Shown piece by piece: positions 13,398-50,470 of a stretch of 64,000 nt of DNA (position 1 is its first letter; each line of letters begins with the position of its first letter). The DNA lies in the IMG/VR virus record IMGVR_UViG_3300033145_000788, positions 34,977-98,976 of that record. One strand, given 5' to 3'. The stretch comes from a virus. The notes below the pieces were generated by a model. That model did not search any database. It saw nothing but the letters and a program-made list of their open reading frames with translations, and was not told the origin of the DNA. Both the position numbers and the translations under genes were made by a program.

Positions 13398-13673
13398 ATG
13401 ATTTATCTTGATGCCCAAAGGGCGGCGGAAAGATTTGCCCCGATTTTTGAAAAGATGGGGTGGACGTGGAGGGGGAAAGATGGGAATCATTATGTTCCTC
13501 TTGAAGCACAAATTTGTCAACGATTAATCCAGTTGAGAAGTGATATTATTTCTGATGATTGTCTAATGAGTGGTACTGGGAGATTAGAAGCTGTTAAAAT
13601 GGATAAGGAACGAATTTGTTTTAGATTAGACCCTGGAAGCGAGAGTGAGTGGGATAAACAATATGCCGGATAA
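13398..13673 (+). CDS. Hypothetical protein
   Basis: 91 residues following AAAGGAG. Begins MIYLDAQRAAERFAPIFEKM, a helix, with a central aromatic segment (WTWRGKDGNHYVP). No recognised domain. It overlaps the next gene by a few codons. Confidence 0.45.
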   Translation: MIYLDAQRAAERFAPIFEKMGWTWRGKDGNHYVPLEAQICQRLIQLRSDIISDDCLMSGTGRLEAVKMDKERICFRLDPGSESEWDKQYAG

Positions 13674-14787
13674 CGACAAAATCACGGAATCGGTAATCAT
13701 CCATCTGATTGAGACCTATGGCAACTTGGCGAACCAGCAGAGGTTTAATCTGGCCAAGCATTGCGTAAGGACCGGCCAAATAAACAGGGGCCACAGTCAA
13801 CTTATGAAGGTTTTGGAAAACAATTCAAATCACGTTGAGGCCAGAAGGTTAATGGAGCTGATGCTCTTTGGGCCAGTGTGGCCGGTGCAGTTGTGCATCG
13901 AGCCGACAAACGAATGCCATGTCGGATGCCCTGGATGTGGGGGCCGGGACGGGGAGATCGGATACATGGACCTGGACCTCTTTAGGACTCTAATGTTGGA
14001 GGTCGCCCCGCATCTCCGGATTCTGGCCCTACATAATCGGGGTGAGTCGTTTCACCATCCTAAGATTTATGACTTCTTGGATGTAGTCGGACAATTCAAG
14101 CATATTTCAACATACATCCATACGGCCGGGCATCTTCCCTTGGATGCTGAGAGGATAGTCCGGGCTCAGGTGCCGACAGAGTTAGTGTTTAGCCTTGATG
14201 GGTTTACGGAGAAGACGCATAGGAAGTATAGAATCGGAGCCGACTTCCAAATTGCGATAGACAATATCAAGAGACTGAAGAAGGAGAAGCGTAAGCTGAA
14301 CGTTGATAAGCCGAAGATCGTCTGGAAATATATTATGATGGGAACGAATGAGCGTGAGGTTAGGCAGGCGATGGGGTTAGCAGCCGAACTCGGATGCGAT
14401 GAGTTCCGGATGGCCCCTTTTGCGGTTGGGTGGAAGACGATAGAGGGCAAGGTGGATGCCTATTTGAAGAAGTTTCTGCCTTCAGATGATAGGAATCTGA
14501 GGAATGACCGTGAGGCTTTGATGCAGGGAAAGATTGTAAAGGCGGGAAGGAAGCCGGGCGAGCCGTTTAATTGTATGGTGGTGCATAACTCGACCGCCAT
14601 CCGGTGGGACGGGAAGGTCTTGCCCTGTTGCAATTGCCTTGAGCCGTATCAGCAGGTCATGGGGGTGTACGGGCCGGGGATGAAGTTCAAGGATATCTGG
14701 GATAGTACCGGGTTCCGGTCGTTCCGGAAGGCGGCTGTCTTGGATGCCAGGAGGCTGAAACCTTGTAGCATGTGCCATATGATTTAA
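13663..14787 (+). CDS. Radical SAM protein (SPASM-like C-terminus)
   Basis: About 374 residues from ATG 13663 (a GTG at 13645 is possible). After ~75 helical residues comes CIEPTNECHVGCPGCGG, the CxxxCxxC motif binding the 4Fe-4S cluster that cleaves S-adenosylmethionine. The C-terminus has CCNC and CSMCHM after AIRWDGKVLP, as in SPASM/twitch auxiliary cluster domains. Next to a glycosyltransferase and two acyl/acetyltransferases, it may modify a sugar or peptide. The substrate cannot be told from sequence. Confidence 0.75.
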   Translation: MPDNDKITESVIIHLIETYGNLANQQRFNLAKHCVRTGQINRGHSQLMKVLENNSNHVEARRLMELMLFGPVWPVQLCIEPTNECHVGCPGCGGRDGEIGYMDLDLFRTLMLEVAPHLRILALHNRGESFHHPKIYDFLDVVGQFKHISTYIHTAGHLPLDAERIVRAQVPTELVFSLDGFTEKTHRKYRIGADFQIAIDNIKRLKKEKRKLNVDKPKIVWKYIMMGTNEREVRQAMGLAAELGCDEFRMAPFAVGWKTIEGKVDAYLKKFLPSDDRNLRNDREALMQGKIVKAGRKPGEPFNCMVVHNSTAIRWDGKVLPCCNCLEPYQQVMGVYGPGMKFKDIWDSTGFRSFRKAAVLDARRLKPCSMCHMI

Positions 14788-27430: not shown

Positions 27431-27958
27431 ATGAAAAAAAAGACTCTTGCGCGGCCCGGCCATGCCAAAGCTGACTACCAGTTAAAACAGAGGCGGCTCC
27501 TGGTCTCGGCGTTGAGGTTGCGGGGCTTATCTCATCAGGAGATAGCGGATAAGTTAGCCGAGCAGGGGATTTATTCCCCGTGTCGTCTTAAGAAGGAAGA
27601 ACCCTTGAGCGTGACGACAATCTCGCACGACTTGAAAATCATAGCAAGGGAATGGCGCGCCGAGATGATCGAGAATATGGATGCGTTAAAGGCAAGGAAG
27701 CTGGCCGAGTTCCGAGAGGTGAAGAAAGCCGCTTGGTCAGGGAAGAATTATATGTCTATTCTCAGGGCGCTTGAGAATGAATGTAAGATATTGGGCCTTT
27801 ATGACAAGGATAACAGGATTAAGGTTGACGTGTCTCTAAGGGAGGTTATAGAGGCGCTTCCCGAAGAGCTGAGGACTACCGTGGAGATGGGCTTGATGGA
27901 GGCGGTGACAGCGAAGGCGGATGGAAGCGGCAAAAAAGCAGATATCAGATATCATTGA
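27431..27958 (+). CDS. terS: Terminase small subunit
   Basis: 175 residues, AGGAGG upstream. N-terminal helix-turn-helix LRLRGLSHQEIADKLAEQG with a recognition part (LSVTTISHDLKI), then a helical oligomerisation region. TerS proteins bind packaging sites and recruit TerL. Direct overlap with the large subunit gene supports the call. Confidence 0.75.
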   Translation: MKKKTLARPGHAKADYQLKQRRLLVSALRLRGLSHQEIADKLAEQGIYSPCRLKKEEPLSVTTISHDLKIIAREWRAEMIENMDALKARKLAEFREVKKAAWSGKNYMSILRALENECKILGLYDKDNRIKVDVSLREVIEALPEELRTTVEMGLMEAVTAKADGSGKKADIRYH

Positions 27959-29657
27959 TGTGATAAAGGGAAAGTTTACGGACGAACAAATCCAAGCGTA
28001 TCTGGACGACAAGGCGAGCGGTGGAAACCCCTATTCCAAATACGCCGATGACCCGGTCGGATTCTGCGAGGAGGAGTTGGGTTGTACCCTGACCGATGAT
28101 ATCATTACGATGATGGAGGCCGTCCGAGATTACAGGGTTGTAATCGCCATATCGGGAAATGCGCCGGGCAAGACGTTTGCTGCCGCTCACATGGCCCATT
28201 GGTTTTACAAGTGTTTGCCTAATTCCCAGGTTATCTTGACGGCCCCGCATCCGGGCGAAGACAATCTAAAGAGAAAGTTGTGGGGGGAGATCGAGAAAGT
28301 ATTTGGGCATAATCCAATGGTCTTTAAGGACGACAGGATCGTTACCTTGGAGATTTCCCCGAAGGCCGATAACCGAGATCGTCAATATCGGCATTTTATT
28401 CAGGGGATTACGCTTCCGCAGTCGGGAAGTGAAGAGGAAAAAATTTCGAAACTTTCCGGATCGCATGCCGACAATATTATGTATATTTTGGATGAAGGAG
28501 ACGCTGTTCCTGAGTGGGCGTTCAAGGCCATTGATTCTTCGATGTCTGGCGGTAATGCCCGTCTCCTGATTATGTATAACCCGAAGAGGAAAGCCGGTGC
28601 CGCCTATAAGAAGATTCGGAGCGGTCAAGCCCATGTCGTTCGGCTGGATGTGTTGAAACATCCCAATGTTCTGACCGGAAAGATTATCGTCCCGGGCGGG
28701 GCAGTTACCCGGGAACAGACGGTTAAGAGGATCAATGAGTGGACGGAACCTCTCCCAAAGGAATATAAACCGGACGCCACTTGTTGGGAGATTCCTGATT
28801 TTCTGGTAGGCGCCACGGCGATAAGTGATAGTGGGAAGGAATTCCCCCCATTGGAAAAGGAATGGCGGAAGATCAAGGACGCCGAGTTCTATTACATGGT
28901 CCTGGGAGAGTATCCGGCGGAAGGTTCGGATCAGTTAATCGCCCAAGCGGATATAGACAAGGCTGTTTCGAGATGGAAGATTTTCGTGGCCGAACACGGA
29001 AAGGAACACGACATAAGACCAGTTATGGGTTGCGATGTGGCGGACAAGGGGCCGGATGAGAACGTGGCGTTTTTAAGATACGGTGAATTCATAGATGAGG
29101 CCAGATCCTTTAATGGGGTTGATCCGGACAAGGGTGCGGATTTGTTCGCCGACATCTGCATCGAGGAGAATGTTCTGTTCGCCAATGTCGAGTCGGATGG
29201 GCTCGGCATGGGGGTTGCCCCGCACATGAGCCGGATAGGATATTTCCGGTGTGAGTTCTGCGAAAAGAATTTCAGAGATGATCAGGTAAGTTCTTGTCCG
29301 GATTGCGAGAAGCCGATGAAATGGCATTGGATAGACGCCAGGCGGGTGATCATGAGTTCGGGGCCAACCGAAGAGGGGCCGGAGATAGGTCGGTTTAAGA
29401 ATATGCGGGACCAGTTGTGGTGGCAGTTGCGGGAATGGCTCAGGACTGATCCGGGAGCGATGCTTCCGCCGGACGATAAATTATTGGAGGAGTTGGCCAT
29501 TCCAACTTACGAGGTAAAACTCGGATACATTAGGATATCTTCCAGAGAAGATATAGTGGGTCTTCTTGGCCGGTCGCCAGACAGGGCGTCAGCCTTGATC
29601 CAGTGTTTATGCGAGGAGAGGCGTGATTTGCGGGTGAGGATGCTTGAGCATGGATAG
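27921..29657 (+). CDS. terL: Terminase large subunit with zinc insert
   Basis: 578 residues. ATPase: deviant Walker A SGNAPGKTF, coupling region LTAPHPGEDNL, Walker B YILDEGDAVPEW. RNase H-like nuclease: GCDVADKGPDEN and ANVESDGLGMGV supply acidic residues. Between them and the last helix lies a four-Cys insert (CEFCEKNF ... SCPDCEKP, near residues 437-460), a zinc ribbon not usual in TerL. It powers DNA packaging through the portal and cuts the concatemer. Confidence 0.88.
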   Translation: MEAAKKQISDIIDVIKGKFTDEQIQAYLDDKASGGNPYSKYADDPVGFCEEELGCTLTDDIITMMEAVRDYRVVIAISGNAPGKTFAAAHMAHWFYKCLPNSQVILTAPHPGEDNLKRKLWGEIEKVFGHNPMVFKDDRIVTLEISPKADNRDRQYRHFIQGITLPQSGSEEEKISKLSGSHADNIMYILDEGDAVPEWAFKAIDSSMSGGNARLLIMYNPKRKAGAAYKKIRSGQAHVVRLDVLKHPNVLTGKIIVPGGAVTREQTVKRINEWTEPLPKEYKPDATCWEIPDFLVGATAISDSGKEFPPLEKEWRKIKDAEFYYMVLGEYPAEGSDQLIAQADIDKAVSRWKIFVAEHGKEHDIRPVMGCDVADKGPDENVAFLRYGEFIDEARSFNGVDPDKGADLFADICIEENVLFANVESDGLGMGVAPHMSRIGYFRCEFCEKNFRDDQVSSCPDCEKPMKWHWIDARRVIMSSGPTEEGPEIGRFKNMRDQLWWQLREWLRTDPGAMLPPDDKLLEELAIPTYEVKLGYIRISSREDIVGLLGRSPDRASALIQCLCEERRDLRVRMLEHG

Positions 29658-31466: not shown

Positions 31467-32864
31467 ATGAAACTTTTTGGGATTGAAATAAAGAAAGCGA
31501 AGAGGGGAGAAGGAGCGGCCAATAACCCCCTGGCGGGAATAATGCTTGCCCCGCATCAGTATGGCCGAGAGCTTACCACCGACAGGGACGTGGAATCTCT
31601 GCTCAAGGCTTATCGGTCATGGGTGTATGTTTGCGCGAACAAGAATGCCACGACTGTGGCCAGTATCCCCTTGAAACTCTATGTGGCTAAGGGGAGCAAG
31701 GGCAAGGGCATAAAGGGCTGGGAGACCAGGGCGATAACGAAGGAGAAGGAAGTCTTTCTCCGGGAGAACCCCGTTTTGAATCAGATCCCGGCGGTCAGGA
31801 AGGCGGTTGAGATTGAGGAGCTGTTAGAGCATCCGTTCCTGGATTTGATGAGACAGGTCAACCAGTTCATGAATCAATTCAGTCTCTGGGAGATCACGGA
31901 ATTATATCAGGAGCTAGCCGGGAACGCCTACTGGCTCGTGGTGGATGGTCCGATGGGGATACCGCAGGAGATATGGCCGATCACGCCCCAGAACATTAAG
32001 ATTGTCCCCGATCAGAAGAAATTCATCAGGGGATATAATTACAAGATCGGGATGACCGAGAAATTCTTCGAGGAATCTCAGATAATCCACTTCAAAATGC
32101 CATCTCCCACGAGTCAATTTTATGGTAAGTCTCCTTTGTCGGCTGTGACCGATATGTACAACATCGGCCAGAATATGAATATATTTGAGAATGCGGTGTT
32201 CAGCAATATGGGTCGGGTTGAAGGTATATTTACGACTAAGGATGAACTTTATCCTGCGGGCCATGAACGGCTCAAGGAAGAAATTAAACAGGCTTTTGGA
32301 GGGGTTAAGAATGCGGGTAAGTCTCCACTTTTGCCACCGAGTGTTGATTATAAATCGATTGGATTGAGTCCGAGAGAATTGAATTTTATCCAGGGCAGGA
32401 AAAGCGTCAAGGAGGAAATCTGCAATGCCTATGGCCAGAGCGTCGCCATGTATGATAAGGAGTCTAACCGGGCAAATGCAGAGGCTGCCAATTATATGTT
32501 CTTGAAGGATACCATCCGGCCCCGGTGCATCCGTATCGAGGAAAAGCTGAACGAGAAATTTATGCCTCGATATGACGAAAGTGGAAATTTATTCGTGGCC
32601 TTTGATAATTGCGTGCCGGCGGACCGGGATGCCCGGTTGAAGGAAATGGAGACCCGGCTCAAGACCGGATACAGTTCGATAAACCAGGAGCGCCAGATAG
32701 ACAATCAGGAAGGGGTGGAATGGGGAGATTTACCGATCTTGCCTCAGACTATGGTTCCCCTCGGATCGGCACCTCCGGCCGGGGAAGGGGCTACGGAAGA
32801 GGAATTGCACGTGTTTAGTCTGAAGGTTGCTGAAATGGTGGAAGAGAAATTGAGCGGGCAATAG
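31467..32864 (+). CDS. Portal protein (HK97 type)
   Basis: 465 residues. Features of HK97-family portals: SWVYVCANKNATTVASIPL, PFLDLMRQVN, TELYQELAGNAYWLV, IIHFKMPSP, the clip/stem region, SYGQSV-like NAYGQSVAMYD, and RLKEMETRLKTGYSSINQER near the end. Twelve subunits form the DNA channel at one capsid vertex. Follows terminase in usual order. Confidence 0.85.
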   Translation: MKLFGIEIKKAKRGEGAANNPLAGIMLAPHQYGRELTTDRDVESLLKAYRSWVYVCANKNATTVASIPLKLYVAKGSKGKGIKGWETRAITKEKEVFLRENPVLNQIPAVRKAVEIEELLEHPFLDLMRQVNQFMNQFSLWEITELYQELAGNAYWLVVDGPMGIPQEIWPITPQNIKIVPDQKKFIRGYNYKIGMTEKFFEESQIIHFKMPSPTSQFYGKSPLSAVTDMYNIGQNMNIFENAVFSNMGRVEGIFTTKDELYPAGHERLKEEIKQAFGGVKNAGKSPLLPPSVDYKSIGLSPRELNFIQGRKSVKEEICNAYGQSVAMYDKESNRANAEAANYMFLKDTIRPRCIRIEEKLNEKFMPRYDESGNLFVAFDNCVPADRDARLKEMETRLKTGYSSINQERQIDNQEGVEWGDLPILPQTMVPLGSAPPAGEGATEEELHVFSLKVAEMVEEKLSGQ

Positions 32865-38517: not shown

Positions 38518-38592
38518 ATGGCTAACAATCAGAATCTTTTTATTCCGCCACAAGTAACCAGAACATCTTTAACCGGATGCTCGATGCAATGA
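38518..38592 (+). CDS. 24-codon leader frame before the MuF gene
   Basis: AGGAGG at 38509-38514 and ATG 38518 open MANNQNLFIPPQVTRTSL and stop at TGA 38590-38592, overlapping ATG 38589 in the MuF frame. The peptide reads like the natural N-terminus of a longer protein, so this may be a frameshifted start of the MuF gene, or a coupling leader. Confidence 0.35.
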   Translation: MANNQNLFIPPQVTRTSLTGCSMQ

Positions 38593-40013
38593 TTCCAAAA
38601 TCCTATTTGACAGACCAATTCGCCGGGGTCGTGGCTGGGGCGATAGTCGCCGATATATTGAAAAGAAGAAAGGAATATTCCCAGGATGAGGTCGAATGGG
38701 AAGCCGAGGCCTGGAGGGAATTCATTGAAAAAGTCGCCGATCCGGGAGAGAAAAAGTTCGTGGCCGTCATGTCCGGCCTCTTCGAGGAGCAGAAAGCCGA
38801 GGTCCTGGCCAACATGAAACGAGCCCCGAAATCTCTTGTCAAGGAGCGGCAGATAGAATCCTGGTTGTTTGGAAGGAAAAAATGGGAGCGGCGATTCCAG
38901 AGAGAAGGAATAGATCTCATGGAGGGAATCGCCGTTACGAATGGGCAGAGGATAATGGACGATCTCCCCGTGATCGGTGTATCGTTCGACGTGACGAATC
39001 CAGAAGTGGCTTCCGCCCTGAAGGAACGGTCAATCAAGTTTTCCAAGGAAGTCGTCGGGACGACAGAGGAAAGGATTCGGGCAACTTTGGCCGAAGGGAT
39101 AGCGCAAGGCGAATCAATCCCCGTCCTGCGTGACCGGATATCCGCCTATTTTGCGGCGGACCGGATAGCAAAGAGGGCGGAGATGATAGCCCGGAACGAG
39201 ACGATCTGGGCGAGCAATGCCGGGGCGGAGTATTCTTATATCCAGTCCGGCGTGGTCGAGGGGAAGGAATGGCTGATCGCGGCTGACGACCGCACATGCG
39301 AATTCTGTTTTACGGCCAGAGATGATTTTGGTCCGAAAGGGAGTAAGGGGCCAACCCCTCTCGGGAAAGCCTTCTATGAAGTGGGGGACGAGGTAACCGG
39401 GGCGGATGGCGGGAAGATGACTCTGTCATACGATACGGTGAACTGGCCTCCGCTTCATGTGCGCTGCAGATGTTCCATCGTTCCCGTATTGATGGAAGCA
39501 CCAATATCTCCCCTTAAACCGGTAAGTTCTACGATTCCTGGGGTGGCAGGGAGGATTCCTCTTTGCGGGCCGAAGTCAAAAGCCCAGGTTTCTTGTTTAC
39601 AGGGGGCCGATGTAGAACGGATACAGCGGGCGACAAAATCTCATCTGCCGGCTACTCGTGAAGTCCAGATGATCGGGGAAGCAAATGAGGGCCGTTTGGC
39701 TTCCGTTTTGAAAAAAGGGAAAGGGCTTCCGGATAATGAAGCCTTTGATGTCATAGTGGGAACGGTGAAGAAACCGGATCATTTGATAGAAGTGAAAACT
39801 ATTGTCCGAGGTAAAAATAATAAAATTACAATGCATCCAGATTCTCGAAGGCGCAAGTTGGCCAAGGCTGCTGAACATCCCGATGCCAAGGTTCACACAG
39901 TTGTCTTTGATGAAAGATCAAAACAAATTTTTTATCGAGAAGGGGTTGGAAGTTTTAGATTGGGAGGGATGAAGGAAGTCACTCTGGAGGATTTAAAGGG
40001 GATATTAATATGA
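38577..40013 (+). CDS. MuF-type minor head protein with C-terminal nuclease-like (toxin) domain
   Basis: 478 residues. Residues 1-310 follow SPP1 gp7/MuF head morphogenesis proteins: IARNETIWASNAGAEY, ADDRTCEFC and the closing WPPLHVRCRCSIVPVL. After a linker, residues ~360-478 form an extra domain with EANEGRLASVLKKG, AFDVIVG and HLIEVKT, a D...ExK arrangement like PD-(D/E)XK nucleases, then KITMHPDSRRRKLAKA and GSFRLGGM. MuF proteins carrying C-terminal polymorphic toxins are known from temperate phages. The next gene could encode the immunity protein. Confidence 0.7.
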   Translation: MLDAMIPKSYLTDQFAGVVAGAIVADILKRRKEYSQDEVEWEAEAWREFIEKVADPGEKKFVAVMSGLFEEQKAEVLANMKRAPKSLVKERQIESWLFGRKKWERRFQREGIDLMEGIAVTNGQRIMDDLPVIGVSFDVTNPEVASALKERSIKFSKEVVGTTEERIRATLAEGIAQGESIPVLRDRISAYFAADRIAKRAEMIARNETIWASNAGAEYSYIQSGVVEGKEWLIAADDRTCEFCFTARDDFGPKGSKGPTPLGKAFYEVGDEVTGADGGKMTLSYDTVNWPPLHVRCRCSIVPVLMEAPISPLKPVSSTIPGVAGRIPLCGPKSKAQVSCLQGADVERIQRATKSHLPATREVQMIGEANEGRLASVLKKGKGLPDNEAFDVIVGTVKKPDHLIEVKTIVRGKNNKITMHPDSRRRKLAKAAEHPDAKVHTVVFDERSKQIFYREGVGSFRLGGMKEVTLEDLKGILI

Positions 40014-40310: not shown

Positions 40311-43300
40311 ATGGAATTGATAACAAAACGAACGCCGGTCAACGAAGCCAATTTACCGGATTGGGCGAAGGATGCCCTAGAGAAGCAGGGGCTCAATCCG
40401 GAAGAGGCCCAGTTCATCCGGAAGGGCTACGATATGCCTGCCGAGAACATTGAATTCAAGGAAGGTGAACGGGCATCTATTGATTATATTTCGACTAAGA
40501 GGATAGACCGGGATAATGAGATCGTGGTTCCAAAAGGCGCAATCCTGGATGATTACAAAAAGAACCCGGTCGTCTTGTGGGGCCACGATTATCGTGGGAT
40601 GCCGATAGGTCGGAGCCAGTGGATAAAGATAGATGAAAAGGGCGTCATTGCAAAGACCGAATACGCCAACACCGCCAAGGCCGACGAGGTCTATGAATAC
40701 CGCAAGGCCGGATTCCCCCTAGCTAAATCCATTGGATTTATTCCTCTGGAATCGGTGGAGGAGAAGGATTTCAAAGACTTGGATCTTAAGGAACTCGGAT
40801 TGACCGGCGACGATATCAAGGGGGCCAAGAGGATTTATCCTAAATGGCTCATGCTGGAATATTCCGATGTACCTGTTCCTTCTAACCCGGACGCCGTGCA
40901 GTTGGCCGTCAACAAGGGTTTATTATCCGAGGAAGAAGCCGGGGATTGGGTTCTTGAAATAGAGGACGATGACGAAATTCAGGTTAACCCTGAAGGGATG
41001 GTTATTGAGGAGAAGGAAGAAAAGATTCCTTTCAAGCGGACAAAGGTCAAGGTTGAAGATCTAGACGAGAAATCTCCCGAAGAACCAGATGATGAAGTTG
41101 TAATAGAGATCGAGGAAGAAGAAACCGAAGAAGAAATGGAGACGGTTACTAAGCCTGAGACAACCGAGAATTACCATCGGGTCCCCGCTCCTGGAGAAGC
41201 CGGTAAGCATGATGGTCATAAGATCAGGACGGATACCATCTCAGAAGACGATGGCATCAAGGGTCTTTATTGCGTGGATTGCAAGGTATATATTACCTAT
41301 CTCTTTGATGTTGATAAGTGGTCTATGGAAGAGGCCCAGACTTGGGTCCGTGAACATTCTAAAGATCATGGGGAGCAGAAAGGGGCAATTGGATCAAGTG
41401 GGCTTCCGACTAATCCCAAGTCTTCCTGGGATGGCGGTGCCGCAGTGGCCCGGATGAGAAAGCTGGCCGGAGGGCCGGACAAGGAGAATATCAAATGGGA
41501 TAGTTATGCCAAGGGGTTCTGCTGGCATAATTCGGCTGAAACCGAGGATTTCGGTTCATACAAATTGCCATTTGCCGATGTGATAGGCGGCAAATTGACG
41601 GCGACCTGGGGCGGTGTGCATACTGCCATGGGCGCGGTGATGGGAGCACGGACTCCAGTTGATATTCCTTCGGGGGACCGGAAGCGAGTTTATAATCTAT
41701 TGGTTGGATATTACAAGAAGTTTGACAAGGAGCCGCCTGAGTTTAAGGAATTGGAGGATATCGAGGCGGAAGAGGAAATACGGGAGCTTGATCAATTGGA
41801 GAATTTGCTCAAAGGAAAGCAATATAAAGATCAACCTCAAAAGCAAGAGAGGTGGAATCTCTCTTTGCCTAAAGCCTTTGATGTTGCCAAAGTTGAATCG
41901 GAATCCTCGACGATGGAATATGATTTAATCTCTAAGTTCTTGGAATGCCAAGTCAAGGAGATTTTTCAGAATGAAATCTTTGTTCCGAGTGCGATGATTG
42001 GTAACTATTTAGCGGCATTGAAAGCGGCGGTTGAACCCTTTGAACTCAAGGATATCAGGAATTTCTCTTATGATGGGACAGAATCCCCTCCGATTTCGGA
42101 GGTTATTCAATTAAATTCAACATCGGAGGATGATTTCCTAATTGAAGGTTATTCATTCTATGATACAGGAAGCATTTATCTTGTAACGAACATTTATCCT
42201 GTTTGGCAAGGAATGATATTTACTTTGTCTACCATCCAAGATGAGAAAGATTGGAATAAGGGAATAGTTTCAGAAATACACAAGTGGGTTAAAGAGAATA
42301 ATTATCTCAAGGGGGAGACCTTTGCATTATCTGGAGAGTTCTTAACAGATGGGCTGGATGATGATTGGGGTGATTTATTTTTATCTCAGAAGAATTTCGA
42401 CGGGGTCAAGAAAGCGGTTGATTATATCAATAAGAAGGGCAAAGAACTTCCGAATAGGGGACTTCTTCTTATGGGGCCTCCGGGAACCGGGAAGACAATG
42501 TCTGGTCGGGCGGTTGCCAATAATATCAAGGAAGAGACGACATTTATTTGGGTGAGTTCTAGAGATTTCTTTCGGAGTCGTGATGGCGCTCCGGGCGGGA
42601 TATCTTATGCATTTCATATGGCCCGTGACCTGGCTCCAACTGTATTATTTATTGAGGATATAGATCATTGGTTGGATGATGGTACATTGGATCTTCTTAA
42701 GACCGAGATGGATGGATTGAGAAAAGGTAAGGGTATCGTTACCATTTTAACATCCAATTATCCCGAACGGCTCCCGGATTCCCTGATAGATAGACCGGGG
42801 AGGTTTCACGATGTCCTCAATTTCAGCCTTCCAGATTTCGGGATCCGGAAGGATATGATGGCCCATTGGACTGGTGGAATCCACGATAAGGCTCTTGAGT
42901 TCATGATTAATGAGACGGACGGATTTAGCGGGGCTCATATCTATGAGCTGGTCGAATTCGCCAAGATTTTGAAAGAGGAAGAGGAAATTCCCCTTGAGAA
43001 AGCCTTGGAGTTGAGTCTTAGGAAAATGATAGAACAGAGGGAATTGATTGAGCAAGTTCAACAAGGCCCAAAATCTCTTGAACCAGAAGATGATATAATT
43101 CTCGAACTCGAAGAAGAGGATGATATTATCCTTGATCTGCAGGATGAACCGATTGGGAAAGAAGGCCGGGTCTTGTCGGCCAAGAACAGGGCGACCATTA
43201 AAGTGGCCATTGAGGGGATGTCCAGGGCGGTTGTAGCTTTGGGCGAACTCATGGATGCCACGGAACCAAATAAAGAGGAAGAAAGGCCTGCCGCAAGTGC

Positions 43301-43511
43301 GAGCGAAGAGCGGGCCGTTGAGGAAGATGGGATAGAAATTAAGGAAGATACAGAGGAATCCGGTGACGACGAACTTATTTCCTCAGAGGATGTGGGGCGA
43401 GTTATCATGGAGATTTTTAAGGAAGCAATTCCTATAATAAAAATTGACACCGACAAGCTAGTGAAGGATGGGTTCGATATCGCCAGGGGAAAAGTCGTGT
43501 TTGAAGATTAG
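40311..43511 (+). CDS. Prohead protease fused to an AAA+ ATPase
   Basis: 1066 residues in one frame. Residues ~45-205 match the S78 prohead protease: RIDRDNEIVVPKGAILDD, VVLWGHDY (His92), PLAKSIGFIP (Ser140). Acidic linkers and a ~100-residue domain (SWDGGAAVARMRKLAGGPDK...) follow. Residues ~690-880 are an AAA+ core: Walker A GPPGTGKT (~721), Walker B VLFIEDIDHW, sensor LTSNYPERLP and arginine finger RPGRF. The tail is acidic and helical, scaffold-like. The protease would mature the capsid; the ATPase role is unknown. Confidence 0.8.
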   Translation: MELITKRTPVNEANLPDWAKDALEKQGLNPEEAQFIRKGYDMPAENIEFKEGERASIDYISTKRIDRDNEIVVPKGAILDDYKKNPVVLWGHDYRGMPIGRSQWIKIDEKGVIAKTEYANTAKADEVYEYRKAGFPLAKSIGFIPLESVEEKDFKDLDLKELGLTGDDIKGAKRIYPKWLMLEYSDVPVPSNPDAVQLAVNKGLLSEEEAGDWVLEIEDDDEIQVNPEGMVIEEKEEKIPFKRTKVKVEDLDEKSPEEPDDEVVIEIEEEETEEEMETVTKPETTENYHRVPAPGEAGKHDGHKIRTDTISEDDGIKGLYCVDCKVYITYLFDVDKWSMEEAQTWVREHSKDHGEQKGAIGSSGLPTNPKSSWDGGAAVARMRKLAGGPDKENIKWDSYAKGFCWHNSAETEDFGSYKLPFADVIGGKLTATWGGVHTAMGAVMGARTPVDIPSGDRKRVYNLLVGYYKKFDKEPPEFKELEDIEAEEEIRELDQLENLLKGKQYKDQPQKQERWNLSLPKAFDVAKVESESSTMEYDLISKFLECQVKEIFQNEIFVPSAMIGNYLAALKAAVEPFELKDIRNFSYDGTESPPISEVIQLNSTSEDDFLIEGYSFYDTGSIYLVTNIYPVWQGMIFTLSTIQDEKDWNKGIVSEIHKWVKENNYLKGETFALSGEFLTDGLDDDWGDLFLSQKNFDGVKKAVDYINKKGKELPNRGLLLMGPPGTGKTMSGRAVANNIKEETTFIWVSSRDFFRSRDGAPGGISYAFHMARDLAPTVLFIEDIDHWLDDGTLDLLKTEMDGLRKGKGIVTILTSNYPERLPDSLIDRPGRFHDVLNFSLPDFGIRKDMMAHWTGGIHDKALEFMINETDGFSGAHIYELVEFAKILKEEEEIPLEKALELSLRKMIEQRELIEQVQQGPKSLEPEDDIILELEEEDDIILDLQDEPIGKEGRVLSAKNRATIKVAIEGMSRAVVALGELMDATEPNKEEERPAASASEERAVEEDGIEIKEDTEESGDDELISSEDVGRVIMEIFKEAIPIIKIDTDKLVKDGFDIARGKVVFED

Positions 43512-43669: not shown

Positions 43670-44929
43670 ATGCAGATAACAAAAGAGCAACTGAAAGAAA
43701 TTATTGTCGAAAACGTAACTCCTTTATTGGAGGCACACGGTAAGAAGATGGAGGATGTTCAGACTGAAGTAGATGAGAAGATCAAGGCTTATGCCGAGCA
43801 ACTCGCTCTGGTTCCGTCGGGGATCGTGGTCGGTGAGGAAGGTTTAGATCGTGACAAGAAGGGCGGATTTAAGTGTTTGAGCCATTTTGCGGAAGATGTT
43901 TTTAAAGCGGAAATAAATCCTAATAAGGTTCTTACTCCAGAATTACAGGCATGGCTTGATCATTATAAGGCAGCTGATAGCACGACCTTGTTGGAAGGAG
44001 AAGATCAGTATGGTGGATTCTTGATTCCAGAGGAATACAGGACAGACCTATGGATGGCCCTGGAAGCCGAGAGCCCGATTTATAATCGGTGTACACGGAT
44101 TCCTATAAAAGGAACATCTGTTCGGTTTCCCTATGTCAACGGGTTCGACGAATCCGGTGGAACCGTATGGGGCGGAATTCAATGGAGTTGGTTAGATGAA
44201 CTTGCGGATAAATCGGCAACCCGCCCGAAATTCGGAATGGTCAGATTGGAGCTGAAAAAATTAGCAGGATTGGCGTTTGCTTCGGATGAGATTCTCAGGG
44301 ACAGCCCGGTAAGTCTCGAAACGATCTTTAAAAAGGGATTTACGGAAGGGCTGGATTTTGAACTGTCCCGTGTTGTCATCCGGGGAAGTGGTGCCGGTCA
44401 ACCGCTTGGAATTCTAAGTTCTCCGCCTAAAGTGCGGGTTAGTAAAGAGACGGGCCAGGCGGCCGATACAATCGTTTATGAAAACATTCTAAAGATGTAT
44501 TCGAGGTTATATCGGAAAGCCGCTGCACTTTGGTTGGTTAATGAGGAATGCCAGGTTCAGCTCGCCACTATGCATTTGGCGGTTGGTACTGGTGGGCTTC
44601 CGGTTTATATGCCGGCCAATGGAGCAGCAGGGATGCCCCTTGAGACTCTTATGGGCAAACCGATTGTGTGGTGTAAACATTGTTCTACTCTCGGAACTGA
44701 GGGCGACATTATGTTGGTTGATCTGAGTCAGTATCTGTTGGGCCTTCCGGCCGGACAGGCTAGTGGCGGAGAGTTTGCGACTTCTGTTCATTTGAAGTTC
44801 GACGCCGACCAGACAGCGTTCCGTTTTGTATTCCGGGTGGATGGACAACCTTGGTGGAGTGATTATTATACTCCGCCCCAGGCGACATCTCACACGATGT
44901 CTCCTTTCATCACACTTGAGGATAGATAA
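43670..44929 (+). CDS. Major capsid protein (HK97 fold)
   Basis: 419 residues. The first ~110 form a helical delta/scaffold-like region (LKEIIVENVTPLLEAHGKKM...), then TTLLEGEDQYGGFLIPEEYR marks the mature HK97 core, with SPIYNRCTRIPIKGTSVRFP, IVWCKHCSTLGTEGDIMLVD and FRFVFRVDGQPW. The protease encoded just upstream would remove the N-terminal part. Confidence 0.85.
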   Translation: MQITKEQLKEIIVENVTPLLEAHGKKMEDVQTEVDEKIKAYAEQLALVPSGIVVGEEGLDRDKKGGFKCLSHFAEDVFKAEINPNKVLTPELQAWLDHYKAADSTTLLEGEDQYGGFLIPEEYRTDLWMALEAESPIYNRCTRIPIKGTSVRFPYVNGFDESGGTVWGGIQWSWLDELADKSATRPKFGMVRLELKKLAGLAFASDEILRDSPVSLETIFKKGFTEGLDFELSRVVIRGSGAGQPLGILSSPPKVRVSKETGQAADTIVYENILKMYSRLYRKAAALWLVNEECQVQLATMHLAVGTGGLPVYMPANGAAGMPLETLMGKPIVWCKHCSTLGTEGDIMLVDLSQYLLGLPAGQASGGEFATSVHLKFDADQTAFRFVFRVDGQPWWSDYYTPPQATSHTMSPFITLEDR

Positions 44930-46870: not shown

Positions 46871-47635
46871 ATGTCATTAACTCGTATTGGATCGAAATAT
46901 ACAGGAGGCTGGTTGTCATTCTATTCCGGAGCCCGCAATGTGGAACTCACCACCTATCCAGGAACGGTGACCGGGGTGGCCGGTTGGGAATTATTCCAGT
47001 CCCGGATTCCCCCGTCCCCGGAGCTGGGGTATGGGAGTAGCGAGGATTTCGCCCCATCTAAATTATATGATACCACTACATATCCGGGGTTCACCGTGAC
47101 CGATGCCTCTGGGACATTAGTAATGGCCGATGCGGCTGGCGGTGTGCTTCAATTGACACCACTAAATAAGGAAGACAAGGGAATCCAAATGCAATCGGAC
47201 GGGGAGATAATCCTTCCTGCCGCCACTAAGGACTTTTGGTTTGAGTGCCGAGTCAAAGGAAATGATGTAACTGAGGTTGATTGGTTTATTGGTTTAGCCA
47301 CTACGGATACGTCCCTGATCGCCAGTGTACCGAATAGTTTGATTGCTTTCAGGACCGATGATGGGGACGCCAATATTAATTTCCAAGTTCGTAGTGGTGG
47401 GACTGGAGATGCGGCGGATACAGGGGTTGATCTCACCGATGGTGCCTGGACACGCTTGGGATTTTTCATTAATGGGGTTACGTCCGTGACACCTTATGTT
47501 GATGGGGTTGCTAAGACAGCGGTGACGGCCAATATCCCTGCGACCGAGATGGCGTTGAGCTTTGCTGTTTTGACTGGGGAGAATGCGGCCAACACATTGG
47601 ATATAGATTGGTATAAACTGGAGCAATTAAGATAA
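46871..47635 (+). CDS. LamG/concanavalin-like virion protein, copy 1
   Basis: 254 residues. Strands such as KDFWFECRVKGNDVTEVDWF, GAWTRLGFFINGVTSVTPYV and ANTLDIDWYKLEQL form a jelly-roll lectin-like domain. The next gene (47675) is a paralogue. Likely surface decoration binding sugars or cell surfaces. Confidence 0.55.
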   Translation: MSLTRIGSKYTGGWLSFYSGARNVELTTYPGTVTGVAGWELFQSRIPPSPELGYGSSEDFAPSKLYDTTTYPGFTVTDASGTLVMADAAGGVLQLTPLNKEDKGIQMQSDGEIILPAATKDFWFECRVKGNDVTEVDWFIGLATTDTSLIASVPNSLIAFRTDDGDANINFQVRSGGTGDAADTGVDLTDGAWTRLGFFINGVTSVTPYVDGVAKTAVTANIPATEMALSFAVLTGENAANTLDIDWYKLEQLR

Positions 47636-47674: not shown

Positions 47675-48448
47675 ATGGGCATGGATCAAGTAAGTGGAAG
47701 AAACGAGGGCGGTTGGCTGGTCTATTATGCCAAGGGTGTCCATAACAAAGAAATTATCGCTTATCCCGCAGATGTGAAGGGGGTGGCCAATTGGGCCTTG
47801 TTTCAATCGATGGTGATGCCGAATCCGGAATGGGGTTACGGAACATTTGAGGATTTCACTCCGAGCATCCTGTATAGTACTACGGCGTATCCTGGATACG
47901 CGGTAACCGTAGCGACTTCGGGGACATTGGTAATGGCCGATGCTGCTGGTGGTGTGCTTCAGTTGACCCCTGCGGCGGCTGAGAACCAGGGAATCCAGAT
48001 GCAGACCGATGGCGAGATATTTCTGCCAGCGGCGAATAAAGATATTTGGTTTGAGTGCCGTGTCCGGGGGAACGACGTGACAGAAGTTGATTGGTTTATT
48101 GGATTGTGTGAGACGGATACAAACATAATCCAGGCTAATCCGACTAATGTAATCGGGTTCTGGACCCATGACGGAGACGCCAATATTGACTTTGAGGTCT
48201 CCAGTAGTGTTGGTGCTGCTGCCGCTGATACCGGTACAGATTTGGCCGATAATACCTGGATTCGCTTGGGATTCTTTGTCAACGGAATCACGTCTGTCAC
48301 ACCATATATTAATGGAACGGCCCAGACAGCAATTGGGGCAACGAATATTCCGGCGACGGAATTGGCTTTGGCTTTTGCTGTTTTGTCGGGAGAGGGTCAA
48401 GCAAATCGGCTTGATATAGATTGGTATAAGATCGTTCAACGTAGATAA
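47675..48448 (+). CDS. LamG/concanavalin-like virion protein, copy 2
   Basis: 257 residues, aligning along its full length with the product of 46871 (shared DIWFECRVRGNDVTEVDWFI, GTLVMADAAGGVLQLTP, DIDWYKIVQ), with a diverged N-terminus. A tandem duplication followed by divergence. Probable virion decoration protein. Confidence 0.55.
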   Translation: MGMDQVSGRNEGGWLVYYAKGVHNKEIIAYPADVKGVANWALFQSMVMPNPEWGYGTFEDFTPSILYSTTAYPGYAVTVATSGTLVMADAAGGVLQLTPAAAENQGIQMQTDGEIFLPAANKDIWFECRVRGNDVTEVDWFIGLCETDTNIIQANPTNVIGFWTHDGDANIDFEVSSSVGAAAADTGTDLADNTWIRLGFFVNGITSVTPYINGTAQTAIGATNIPATELALAFAVLSGEGQANRLDIDWYKIVQRR

Positions 48449-48454
48449 CAACAA

Positions 48455-48483
48455 TCCACAGGGCGTTTGAACCGCCCGGGAGG
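48455..48483 (+). promoter_or_regulatory. Leader hairpin with Shine-Dalgarno, copy 3
   Basis: CCACAGGGCGTTTGAACCGC then CCGGGAGG. Compared with copies 1 and 2 the stem is GGGCG/CGCCC: an A-to-G change on one side is matched by T-to-C on the other, which keeps the pair. The loop changes at one base. Confidence 0.65.
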
Positions 48484-48493
48484 AAAGAGAGAG

Positions 48494-50470
48494 ATGAGTC
48501 ACGGAGCAAAAACAGAATTATTTGTAAGAAAACAGAGCGGTGGTATGTTCACGGTTGTGGATGAAGGAATGACTACTGGTAACATTTATTTTGTTGATTC
48601 GGGTAAGACTACAACCGGAGGCGATACTGCTCCTTTTGGTGATAACCCGGACCATCCTTTTTTAACCTTAGATTATGCTATCACGCAGACTACTGCGGCC
48701 AATAATGACCGTATTTATGTGATGGCTGGCCATACTGAGAGCATTGTCTCGGCAAGCGATATTGCCTTTGGGACAAAGACTGGTGTTCATGTCATCGGTT
48801 TGGGGCACGGGGCCGACCGTCCGGTTTTCACCTTTGATACTGATATTGCAGCCACGATTGCAGTCAACGCAGCTTCTACTAAGTTGGAGAATCTGGTCTT
48901 TGTTAATGGACTTGATAATATGACATCTCCGATGTTGGTGACAGCAGCTGATTGTGAGTTTATTGATGTTGAGACACGGGATAATAATAGCAGTTATCAT
49001 TGCGATGATTTCATCAAGTTGAGCAACGCTGCCCATCGGTTTCACATGAAGGGTTGGCGACATTTGGCCGGGGATGGAAAGACCGGAGCCCAGTCGGCGT
49101 TGTACATTGATGGATCAGATGATATTTTTGTTGAGGATTTTTATTGTCTCGGTGAATTTGCAGTCGCTAACATTGATAATACAACCGGCGCCGATGAGAT
49201 GCTGAGATGCGTATTCAAGCATGGACTTTTAGAGAATACGGCAATACAACCCTGTTTAGATGCTGACACCGATGCAACGGGCTATTTTTATGATGTACAT
49301 ATGAGAATAGCCTCTGGAACAACTTATATCAATGGTGATCCGGATATCCAATTCATTGAATGCTACGGGTCGAATGCGGCTGGCGGTGGTCAGGAAGAGA
49401 TTGGTAGTATTATCTCTGGTAGCGTCGAAGGCAAGATTGATGTCATTGATGGTTATCACGATGTGGCGGCAGTTGATACTTCTGACAATTTAGTAATATC
49501 AGACACCGTTGGGAATAAAGATGACACGGCAGCTACTACAGGTTCTGTGATTGCAATGGAGAAAGGTATAATCGCAGCCATCGGTGTTGTAGATGCATTC
49601 CATGATGTTCCCCTTGTTGATACTTCAGATAACGTGGTGGTATCGGATGTTCTTGGAAATAAGAATGACACCGCAGCCACCACGGGTTCTGTGATTGCAA
49701 TAGAGAAGGGGATCGTCGCTGCGATTGGTGTGGTAGACGCTTTCCATGATATTCCTACTGTTGATACATCGGACAATGTGGTTATATCAGATGTTCTCGG
49801 GAACAAAGATGATACAGCGGCTACGACCGGCTCAGTTGTTGCAATTAATAAGGGCATTGTTGCTGCCGTTGGGGTGGTTGATGCATTCCATGATGTACCT
49901 ACTGTTAACACATCGGATAATGTGGTGATGTCAGATGTTCTTGGCAACAAAGATGACTCGGCGACATCCACGGGTTCAGTGGCTGCGATTATTAAGCAGA
50001 TATTTGCTGATTCTGAAGGTTCAACAATCAATAAGGATCGGGAACAATATCTTATGGTGACGGCTGACTTTAGCCAGACTACCTGGAATGCACTTACATC
50101 TCATGAGATTCTAACTGTTACTGGCCTTAACCGGGTGAGAATTATTCCTGAGGTCCAGGCGGATGTTGGTAACGATTCGGCTACCGCGAAACTCTCACTT
50201 GGAACTGCAAATACGGTTGCGGAATTCCTTGCGGCGACCACGGCGACCGAATTAGATGCCGGTGAAATTTGGCAATCAACAACCGGAGCAAGCAATGTTT
50301 CGTCTTTGGCTCATACTTCCCTTGTGGATTACTTCATCAATGATGATGACATTGGCTATTTGATTGCGACTACGGCCACCACGGCGGGTTCCATGAGATT
50401 TCACTGTTGGTGGGAGGCATTAGAGGACGGAGCAAGCGTGGCCGCTGGTACCGGAGTAGCTTTAAGATAA
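48494..50470 (+). CDS. Large repeat-containing virion/fibre protein
   Basis: 659 residues from ATG 48494. N-terminal ~320 residues are beta-helix-like (NIYFVDSGKTTTGG, FLTLDYAITQTTAANNDRIY). Residues ~315-505 hold four 48-residue repeats, and the C-terminal ~150 are a beta-rich domain (RVRIIPEVQADVGNDSATAK). A fibre or appendage on the head is plausible from its place between capsid and neck genes. Confidence 0.55.
   Translation: MSHGAKTELFVRKQSGGMFTVVDEGMTTGNIYFVDSGKTTTGGDTAPFGDNPDHPFLTLDYAITQTTAANNDRIYVMAGHTESIVSASDIAFGTKTGVHVIGLGHGADRPVFTFDTDIAATIAVNAASTKLENLVFVNGLDNMTSPMLVTAADCEFIDVETRDNNSSYHCDDFIKLSNAAHRFHMKGWRHLAGDGKTGAQSALYIDGSDDIFVEDFYCLGEFAVANIDNTTGADEMLRCVFKHGLLENTAIQPCLDADTDATGYFYDVHMRIASGTTYINGDPDIQFIECYGSNAAGGGQEEIGSIISGSVEGKIDVIDGYHDVAAVDTSDNLVISDTVGNKDDTAATTGSVIAMEKGIIAAIGVVDAFHDVPLVDTSDNVVVSDVLGNKNDTAATTGSVIAIEKGIVAAIGVVDAFHDIPTVDTSDNVVISDVLGNKDDTAATTGSVVAINKGIVAAVGVVDAFHDVPTVNTSDNVVMSDVLGNKDDSATSTGSVAAIIKQIFADSEGSTINKDREQYLMVTADFSQTTWNALTSHEILTVTGLNRVRIIPEVQADVGNDSATAKLSLGTANTVAEFLAATTATELDAGEIWQSTTGASNVSSLAHTSLVDYFINDDDIGYLIATTATTAGSMRFHCWWEALEDGASVAAGTGVALR
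49440..50010 (+). repeat. Four in-frame 144-bp (48-residue) tandem repeats
   Basis: Repeat starts marked by GTTGATAC-like sequence at 49472, 49616, 49760 and 49904 are 144 bases apart. Each encodes a version of VDTSDNVVISDVLGNKDDTA then TGSVIAIEKGIVAAIGVVDA. Differences are mostly at third codon positions, showing selection on the protein. Confidence 0.75.

Follow-up and report, generated by a model that had tools for sequence, protein, structure and literature searches.

Recurrent fusion of an S78-type head maturation protease with a YjoB/Bcs1-like AAA ATPase cassette in uncultured tailed phages

Background

To our knowledge, neither prohead assembly nor proteolytic maturation in tailed phages needs a phage ATPase, the packaging terminase excepted, and the chaperone help that phage heads receive comes from host GroEL or from phage co-chaperonins. 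Prohead proteases of the HK97 type (PF04586; TIGR01543) are characterized by a catalytic serine and histidine and by a portal-protease-capsid gene order, and their usual members are devoid of an AAA module. The scaffold, a core inside the prohead, is cleaved by the phage protease in both HK97 and T4 (PMC3185693). In the protease/major capsid protein (MCP) fusions described by NF045541 the protease is chained to the head protein, and a fusion of prohead protease and major capsid protein is also present in thaumarchaeal proviruses (PMC6563490); the fusions known so far contain no ATPase.

Among cellular ATPases, FtsH and the m-AAA and i-AAA proteases unite an AAA module and a protease in one chain, the protease being a zinc metalloprotease, the Walker B motif ending in DE and the pore loop bearing a conserved aromatic residue. 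YjoB of Bacillus subtilis is a standalone cellular protein, without any protease, that functions as a chaperone. Its N-domain and AAA domain constitute a single cassette (PDB: 7w42, 7w46). Mitochondrial Bcs1, which combines a middle domain with an AAA domain, is a membrane-anchored heptamer with a specific domain of its own. It is reported to handle folded protein by concerted, non-threading movements (PMC11143374, PMC12219900).

Here we describe a gene from a 64,000-nucleotide stretch (the window) of a 98,976-base viral record, in which an S78-type protease and a chaperone-like AAA cassette share one reading frame, and trace its relatives through the IMG/VR collection.

Results and discussion

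The fusion gene and its place in the head module

The head-module genes for which coordinates follow are all encoded on the plus strand. The terminase large subunit (27921..29657; phrog_2) and the portal protein (31467..32864; PF04860) are followed by a Mu gpF-like minor head protein (38577..40013; PF04233), a 98-residue ORF, the fusion ORF (40311..43511) and an HK97-type MCP (43670..44929; PF05065, E 7.8e-40), so that the fusion ORF sits within a phage head module. In its gene order and its catalytic Ser and His the locus resembles those of the HK97-type proteases, from whose usual members it is set apart by the AAA module. The MCP gene starts 158 nt after the fusion ORF; protease and capsid protein are separate genes and not a chain of the NF045541 type. 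Elsewhere in the window, a Radical SAM/SPASM protein is encoded at 13645-14787, close to replication genes of the gp32, RecA and exonuclease-like kinds, and downstream of the capsid region are found two neighbouring ORFs, paralogous to each other and each about 255 residues long (46871-47635 and 47675-48448), and an ORF (48467-50470) with approximately four tandem repeats of a 40-45-residue unit ('VVDAFHDVPTVDTSDNVVISDVLGNKDDTAATTGSV').

The fusion ORF is an intact single frame of 1066 residues that opens with an ATG, 6 nt downstream of a GGAGG Shine-Dalgarno sequence that makes a good ribosome site, and the initial annotation was right to read protease and AAA+ module as one uninterrupted frame. 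Its N-terminus is formed by the S78 prohead protease domain (residues 1-200; 40311..40910), which is followed by an acidic disordered linker (residues 205-284; 40923..41162; AlphaFold2 (AF2) pLDDT below 50 at 212-278) and a small β domain (residues 285-356; 41163..41378), confidently predicted by AF2 at about 285-350, which is also present in protease relatives without the AAA part and appears zinc-like, L170 and L175 being among those that gave 'zn' matches. Then comes a mobile phage domain (residues 358-475; 41382..41735), which is common to the head protease of Thermus phage Riverbug and to a free-standing Moorella phage protein. The cassette proper comprises an N-domain of about 180 residues (514-690; 41850..42380), conserved across 68 cassettes and modelled with a pLDDT of about 95, and the AAA ATPase domain with its lid (691-917; 42381..43061; PF00004). 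What had been noted as a single 'middle domain' is a real region, though one made up of several domains, the last of which, the 180-residue N-domain, belongs to the AAA module. The chain ends in the acidic, helical tail that had been noted (43062..43508), which contains a GRVLSxKNR motif, is shared with the AAA-less protease relatives and is predicted to form helices at 957-984, 1025-1039 and 1047-1058. In the full-chain AF2 model the protease and the cassette are well predicted, in blocks near or above 90, whereas weaker helices span 375-500 and disordered linkers occupy 212-278, 921-955 and 984-1023.

The protease and the AAA cassette

The Peptidase_S78 model PF04586 matches residues 70-197 with 24.9 bits against a cut-off of 21, whereas NCBIfam TIGR01543 reaches 28.1 bits, below its cut-off of 59. 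The His92 and Ser140 singled out by the initial annotation are, together with Glu183, invariant in an alignment of 39 full-length members; across 77 fused S78 domains the three columns are occupied as expected in 72 (His92), 76 (Ser140) and 77 (Glu183) cases, the exceptions being truncations or alignment shifts of one column. An S78 domain lies directly upstream of the MCP gene both in the window and in 62 of 73 relatives with the same domain order, the median gap between fusion and MCP gene in these relatives being 98 nt. Judged by sequence and gene order, the window protein is predicted to be an S78-type head maturation protease.

The AAA part is matched by PF00004 at residues 718-839 (68.3 bits; cut-off 21.2), and is the complete module that had been claimed: it has a Walker A motif (GPPGTGKT, residues 722-729; 42474..42497), a Walker B motif (VLFIEDID, residues 778-785; 42642..42665) supplying E782-D783-x-D785, a sensor-1 Asn (N816) and two arginine fingers (R828 and R831; 42792..42803). 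A set of 68 cassettes shows no variation in Walker A, in the E-D pair of Walker B, in the sensor-1 Asn or in either arginine finger. Since the catalytic residues of the protease and all motifs of the ATPase are conserved, both activities are probably under selection, and both enzymes of the fusion look active.

Two features separate the cassette from the threading ATPases. The Walker B pair is E-D in 68 of 68 cassettes as against D-E in all 87 control motifs of the FtsH/Cdc48 type, and the aromatic residue of pore loop 1 is found in 25 of the 68, as against at least 74 of the 87 controls, the other cassettes having R, K or H, plus rarer residues, at this position. A scan of genome contigs with the cassette alignment was dominated by FtsH-type P-loops, and its best 80 loci are informative only as controls. 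The AAA domain of the window protein also scores against FtsH and Cdc48 models.

The cassette of about 400 residues yielded an AF2 model with a pLDDT of 92.8, and a structure search of the PDB placed it closest to YjoB (7w42, E 6.8e-18, 430 columns), with Bcs1 next. The full-length matches of the predicted monomer to both (about 430 columns) have a TM of about 0.5 and an rmsd of 8-9, which suggests that in the model the domains agree with YjoB/Bcs1 but their orientation does not. In a PDB profile search the N-domain (514-690) had no sequence match to YjoB or Bcs1, the sole hit being a chance match with E 0.3, and Pfam's BCS1 N-domain did not match the cassette. The superposition values and the N-domain without a sequence match in the PDB lead us to regard the cassette as YjoB/Bcs1-like rather than as a member of that group. 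In BFVD the model matched AAA proteins that phages and giant viruses encode as standalone chains. A standalone bacterial protein of 454 residues (L283), which like YjoB has no protease, aligns over both N-domain and AAA domain (31% identity over 373 residues) and has the E-D Walker B pair; this alignment fits a cellular origin of the cassette.

Recurrence and arrangements among IMG/VR relatives

Across 50,697 annotated phage records, no place covered as much as 80% of either the fusion or the cassette, the matches being limited to general AAA domains, S78 domains or the small middle domain. No S78-AAA fusion is reported in the open-access literature that we searched, in keeping with the initial annotation, which knew of no characterized phage example. 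Phage proteins annotated as YjoB (phiXF1) or AAA-ATPase (prophiFSQJ01-1) have no head-protease annotation beside them. The domain order does recur in IMG/VR contigs, where a profile scan with the AAA part recovered 117 relatives, a second scan with GC-rich seeds added more, and one that started from the protease turned up 55 loci. Removal of near-duplicates left 88 non-redundant AAA cassettes, most of them on contigs that are fragments.

In 73 of the 88 the S78 domain precedes the AAA domain in the same frame; four others (L049, L059, L063 and L070) have the order AAA-S78-MCP in one frame, and six have the S78 domain in an adjacent frame, L024, L046 and L053 among them. Of the remaining five, three are cut at the 5' end, L073 is open at the 5' end, and L065 is followed by a frame that is S78-like by a looser model only. 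The protease partner is consequently in the same or an adjacent frame for all 83 classifiable cassettes, and none of the 88 was demonstrably without one. An assembly error or frameshift joining two genes, which the initial annotation had raised against its own reading along with absence from relatives, has virtually no likelihood left, because many metagenomes contributed to the 73 non-redundant contigs with this fusion, and four more have the order reversed. The frame is split inside otherwise fused genes in L003 and L194.

The four AAA-S78-MCP proteins are single frames of about 1100 residues that amount to a polyprotein head module. They alone in this set conform to the NF045541 type, which they extend by an ATPase. 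At the likely MCP start, where an internal start could yield free MCP, there is no Shine-Dalgarno sequence in L049, L059 and L070, while L063 has AAGGA.

In L024, L046 and L053 an apparent second S78 domain in the AAA frame (E about 1e-14 at first) proved to be profile drift: the catalytic motif is absent, its branch length is 5.2 and a cleaned model does not match it, the real S78 domain being the next frame. In these three and in L065, the S78 frame that follows the separate AAA frame seems to carry a second, different protease-like domain (GHP...GISASF) downstream of the first. L061 (6783-12887) encodes an S78-AAA protein of 2035 residues, in the long C-terminal part of which a 'YEVRPxxxGxYGVxRTxxHP'-like motif recurs several times.

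Some capsid genes after the fusion are themselves unusual. They are broken into two to four pieces in L026, L047, L062 and L071, and also in L023, L025 and L034; Rfam identified group I introns in the first four (three in L026, two each in L047 and L062, one in L071) and made no intron call in the latter three. Two capsid-like genes, the second matching the same MCP profile, follow the fusion in L007, L010, L014, L019, L028, L037, L044 and L072.

The cassette as an optional insert

The protease lineage of the window also occurs without the cassette, in L170 (524 residues, with a protease 65% identical), L172, L183, L186 and others, in a set sampled around the window's lineage only. These proteins have the S78 domain, sometimes the small β or middle domain, the GRVLSxKNR tail and then the capsid gene, whereas the cassette-bearing relatives run S78-(small domains)-AAA-tail; the downstream capsid gene looks similar in both. 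A search for the cassette elsewhere in the AAA-less contigs, which are fragments, did not find it. Given that these relatives build heads, and that their incomplete contigs hold no cassette elsewhere, the cassette is probably not generally required. In L170, L186, L187, L190 and L204, all AAA-less, the space between S78 domain and tail is taken by a conserved unknown domain ('GWDETxxSFRxRVRDPxxFxxGxxRTV...FPKxxxWTxxxAKxWL').

A minimum of 10 changes is required to explain the distribution of the cassette on an S78 tree of 105 rows, four to five of them dictated by well-supported branches, and one supported sister pair consists of L210, with the cassette, and L211, without it. Mantel correlations of distances are 0.77 for protease and capsid protein, as against 0.41 for cassette and protease and 0.43 for cassette and capsid protein. 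Over 56 genomes the pairwise identity averages 44% in the cassette, 32% in the S78 domain and 26% in the capsid protein, so that of these the ATPase appears to be under the tightest constraint. The data fit a cassette that has been gained, lost or exchanged repeatedly, and different rates could contribute. From such comparisons the cassette is best described as an optional insert between protease and tail, with a history partly decoupled from those of protease and capsid protein, and the gap that it fills as a slot where domains come and go. A host-side search for the phage fusion returned none in 400 genomes from the phylum of G031 (a Dehalococcoidia MAG), and, among 297 from that of G035 (a deltaproteobacterial MAG), a single standalone homologue and no phage fusion.

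Possible functions

We tentatively favour a function in head assembly, under which an AAA ATPase of YjoB/Bcs1 structural type would have been captured from a cell and inserted between the S78 protease and the acidic helical tail. Protease and tail would bring the fusion protein into the prohead core, the route that prohead proteases and scaffolds take. Its AAA part would assemble into a ring that spends ATP on chaperoning or remodelling the capsid or scaffold proteins while the head is being built; processing of the head by the protease would come afterwards, probably with cleavage of the fusion itself. A protease, a chaperone-type AAA module and a conserved tail in one chain point most simply to ATP-driven chaperoning or remodelling at the prohead, and so do the AAA-S78-MCP polyproteins, in which ATPase and capsid protein belong to one chain. 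A ring that is linked to the maturation protease and serves in chaperoning or remodelling is in our view plausible, if just short of probable, with location, ring, substrate, timing and self-cleavage being what we infer from the data above.

The initial annotation had envisaged an energy-dependent maturation machine. Insofar as this implied a conserved protease-AAA+ fusion beside the capsid gene, with its catalytic residues kept, it holds; the classical form, in which the AAA ring acts as an unfoldase that delivers scaffold or delta domains to the S78 active site, is quite unlikely. ATPase and protease do share a chain, as in FtsH or Lon, with both active sites intact, and the scores against FtsH and Cdc48 models could be taken in the same sense. 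However, the nearest folds are those of YjoB and Bcs1, the Walker B pair is E-D, the pore-loop aromatic is retained in a minority of cassettes, and close relatives process their heads without any AAA part. The L049-type proteins, with their reversed order, and L024, L046 and L053, in which the two lie in separate frames, argue against a fixed geometry of ring on protease, and the FtsH group differs from the fusion in protease fold and domain logic.

The AAA oligomer might instead be a spacer that sets the number and placement of protease or scaffold in the prohead or at the portal, with ATP binding rather than hydrolysis being what matters. AAA modules do form rings, the cassette lies between protease and conserved tail, and it accompanies S78 in three different arrangements; nevertheless the catalytic residues, sensor 1 and the arginine fingers among them, are fully conserved, which speaks for hydrolysis, and a capsid gene that looks alike with and without the cassette counts against such a device, which we regard as unlikely. 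The variability of the slot, which holds other small domains in AAA-less relatives while the tail is conserved, together with the partly decoupled history of the cassette, would suit a cargo that is carried into the head, freed by the protease and injected with the DNA to act in the host, comparable to the internal proteins of T4. This we consider improbable in view of the strict linkage to S78 even where the two are unfused, of the polyproteins, which would bring one AAA module per capsid subunit unless cleaved early, and of the size of the ring, which would need to unfold to pass the portal.

Conclusion

If the preferred reading, an ATP-driven chaperone or remodelling ring joined to the maturation protease, is right, these proteins could represent an undescribed class of head-assembly factor, in or on the prohead and in some cases joined to the MCP as well, by which capsid assembly or maturation would be ATP-dependent apart from DNA packaging; so broad a claim is possible but still somewhat doubtful. 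The fusion suggests that shell building in the phages that have it may use ATP. Many uncultured tailed phages hard-wire an AAA module to their maturation protease, and, as natural relatives without the AAA module exist, ATP-driven capsid assembly becomes a directly testable question, for which the AAA-S78-MCP polyproteins present an even stronger case.
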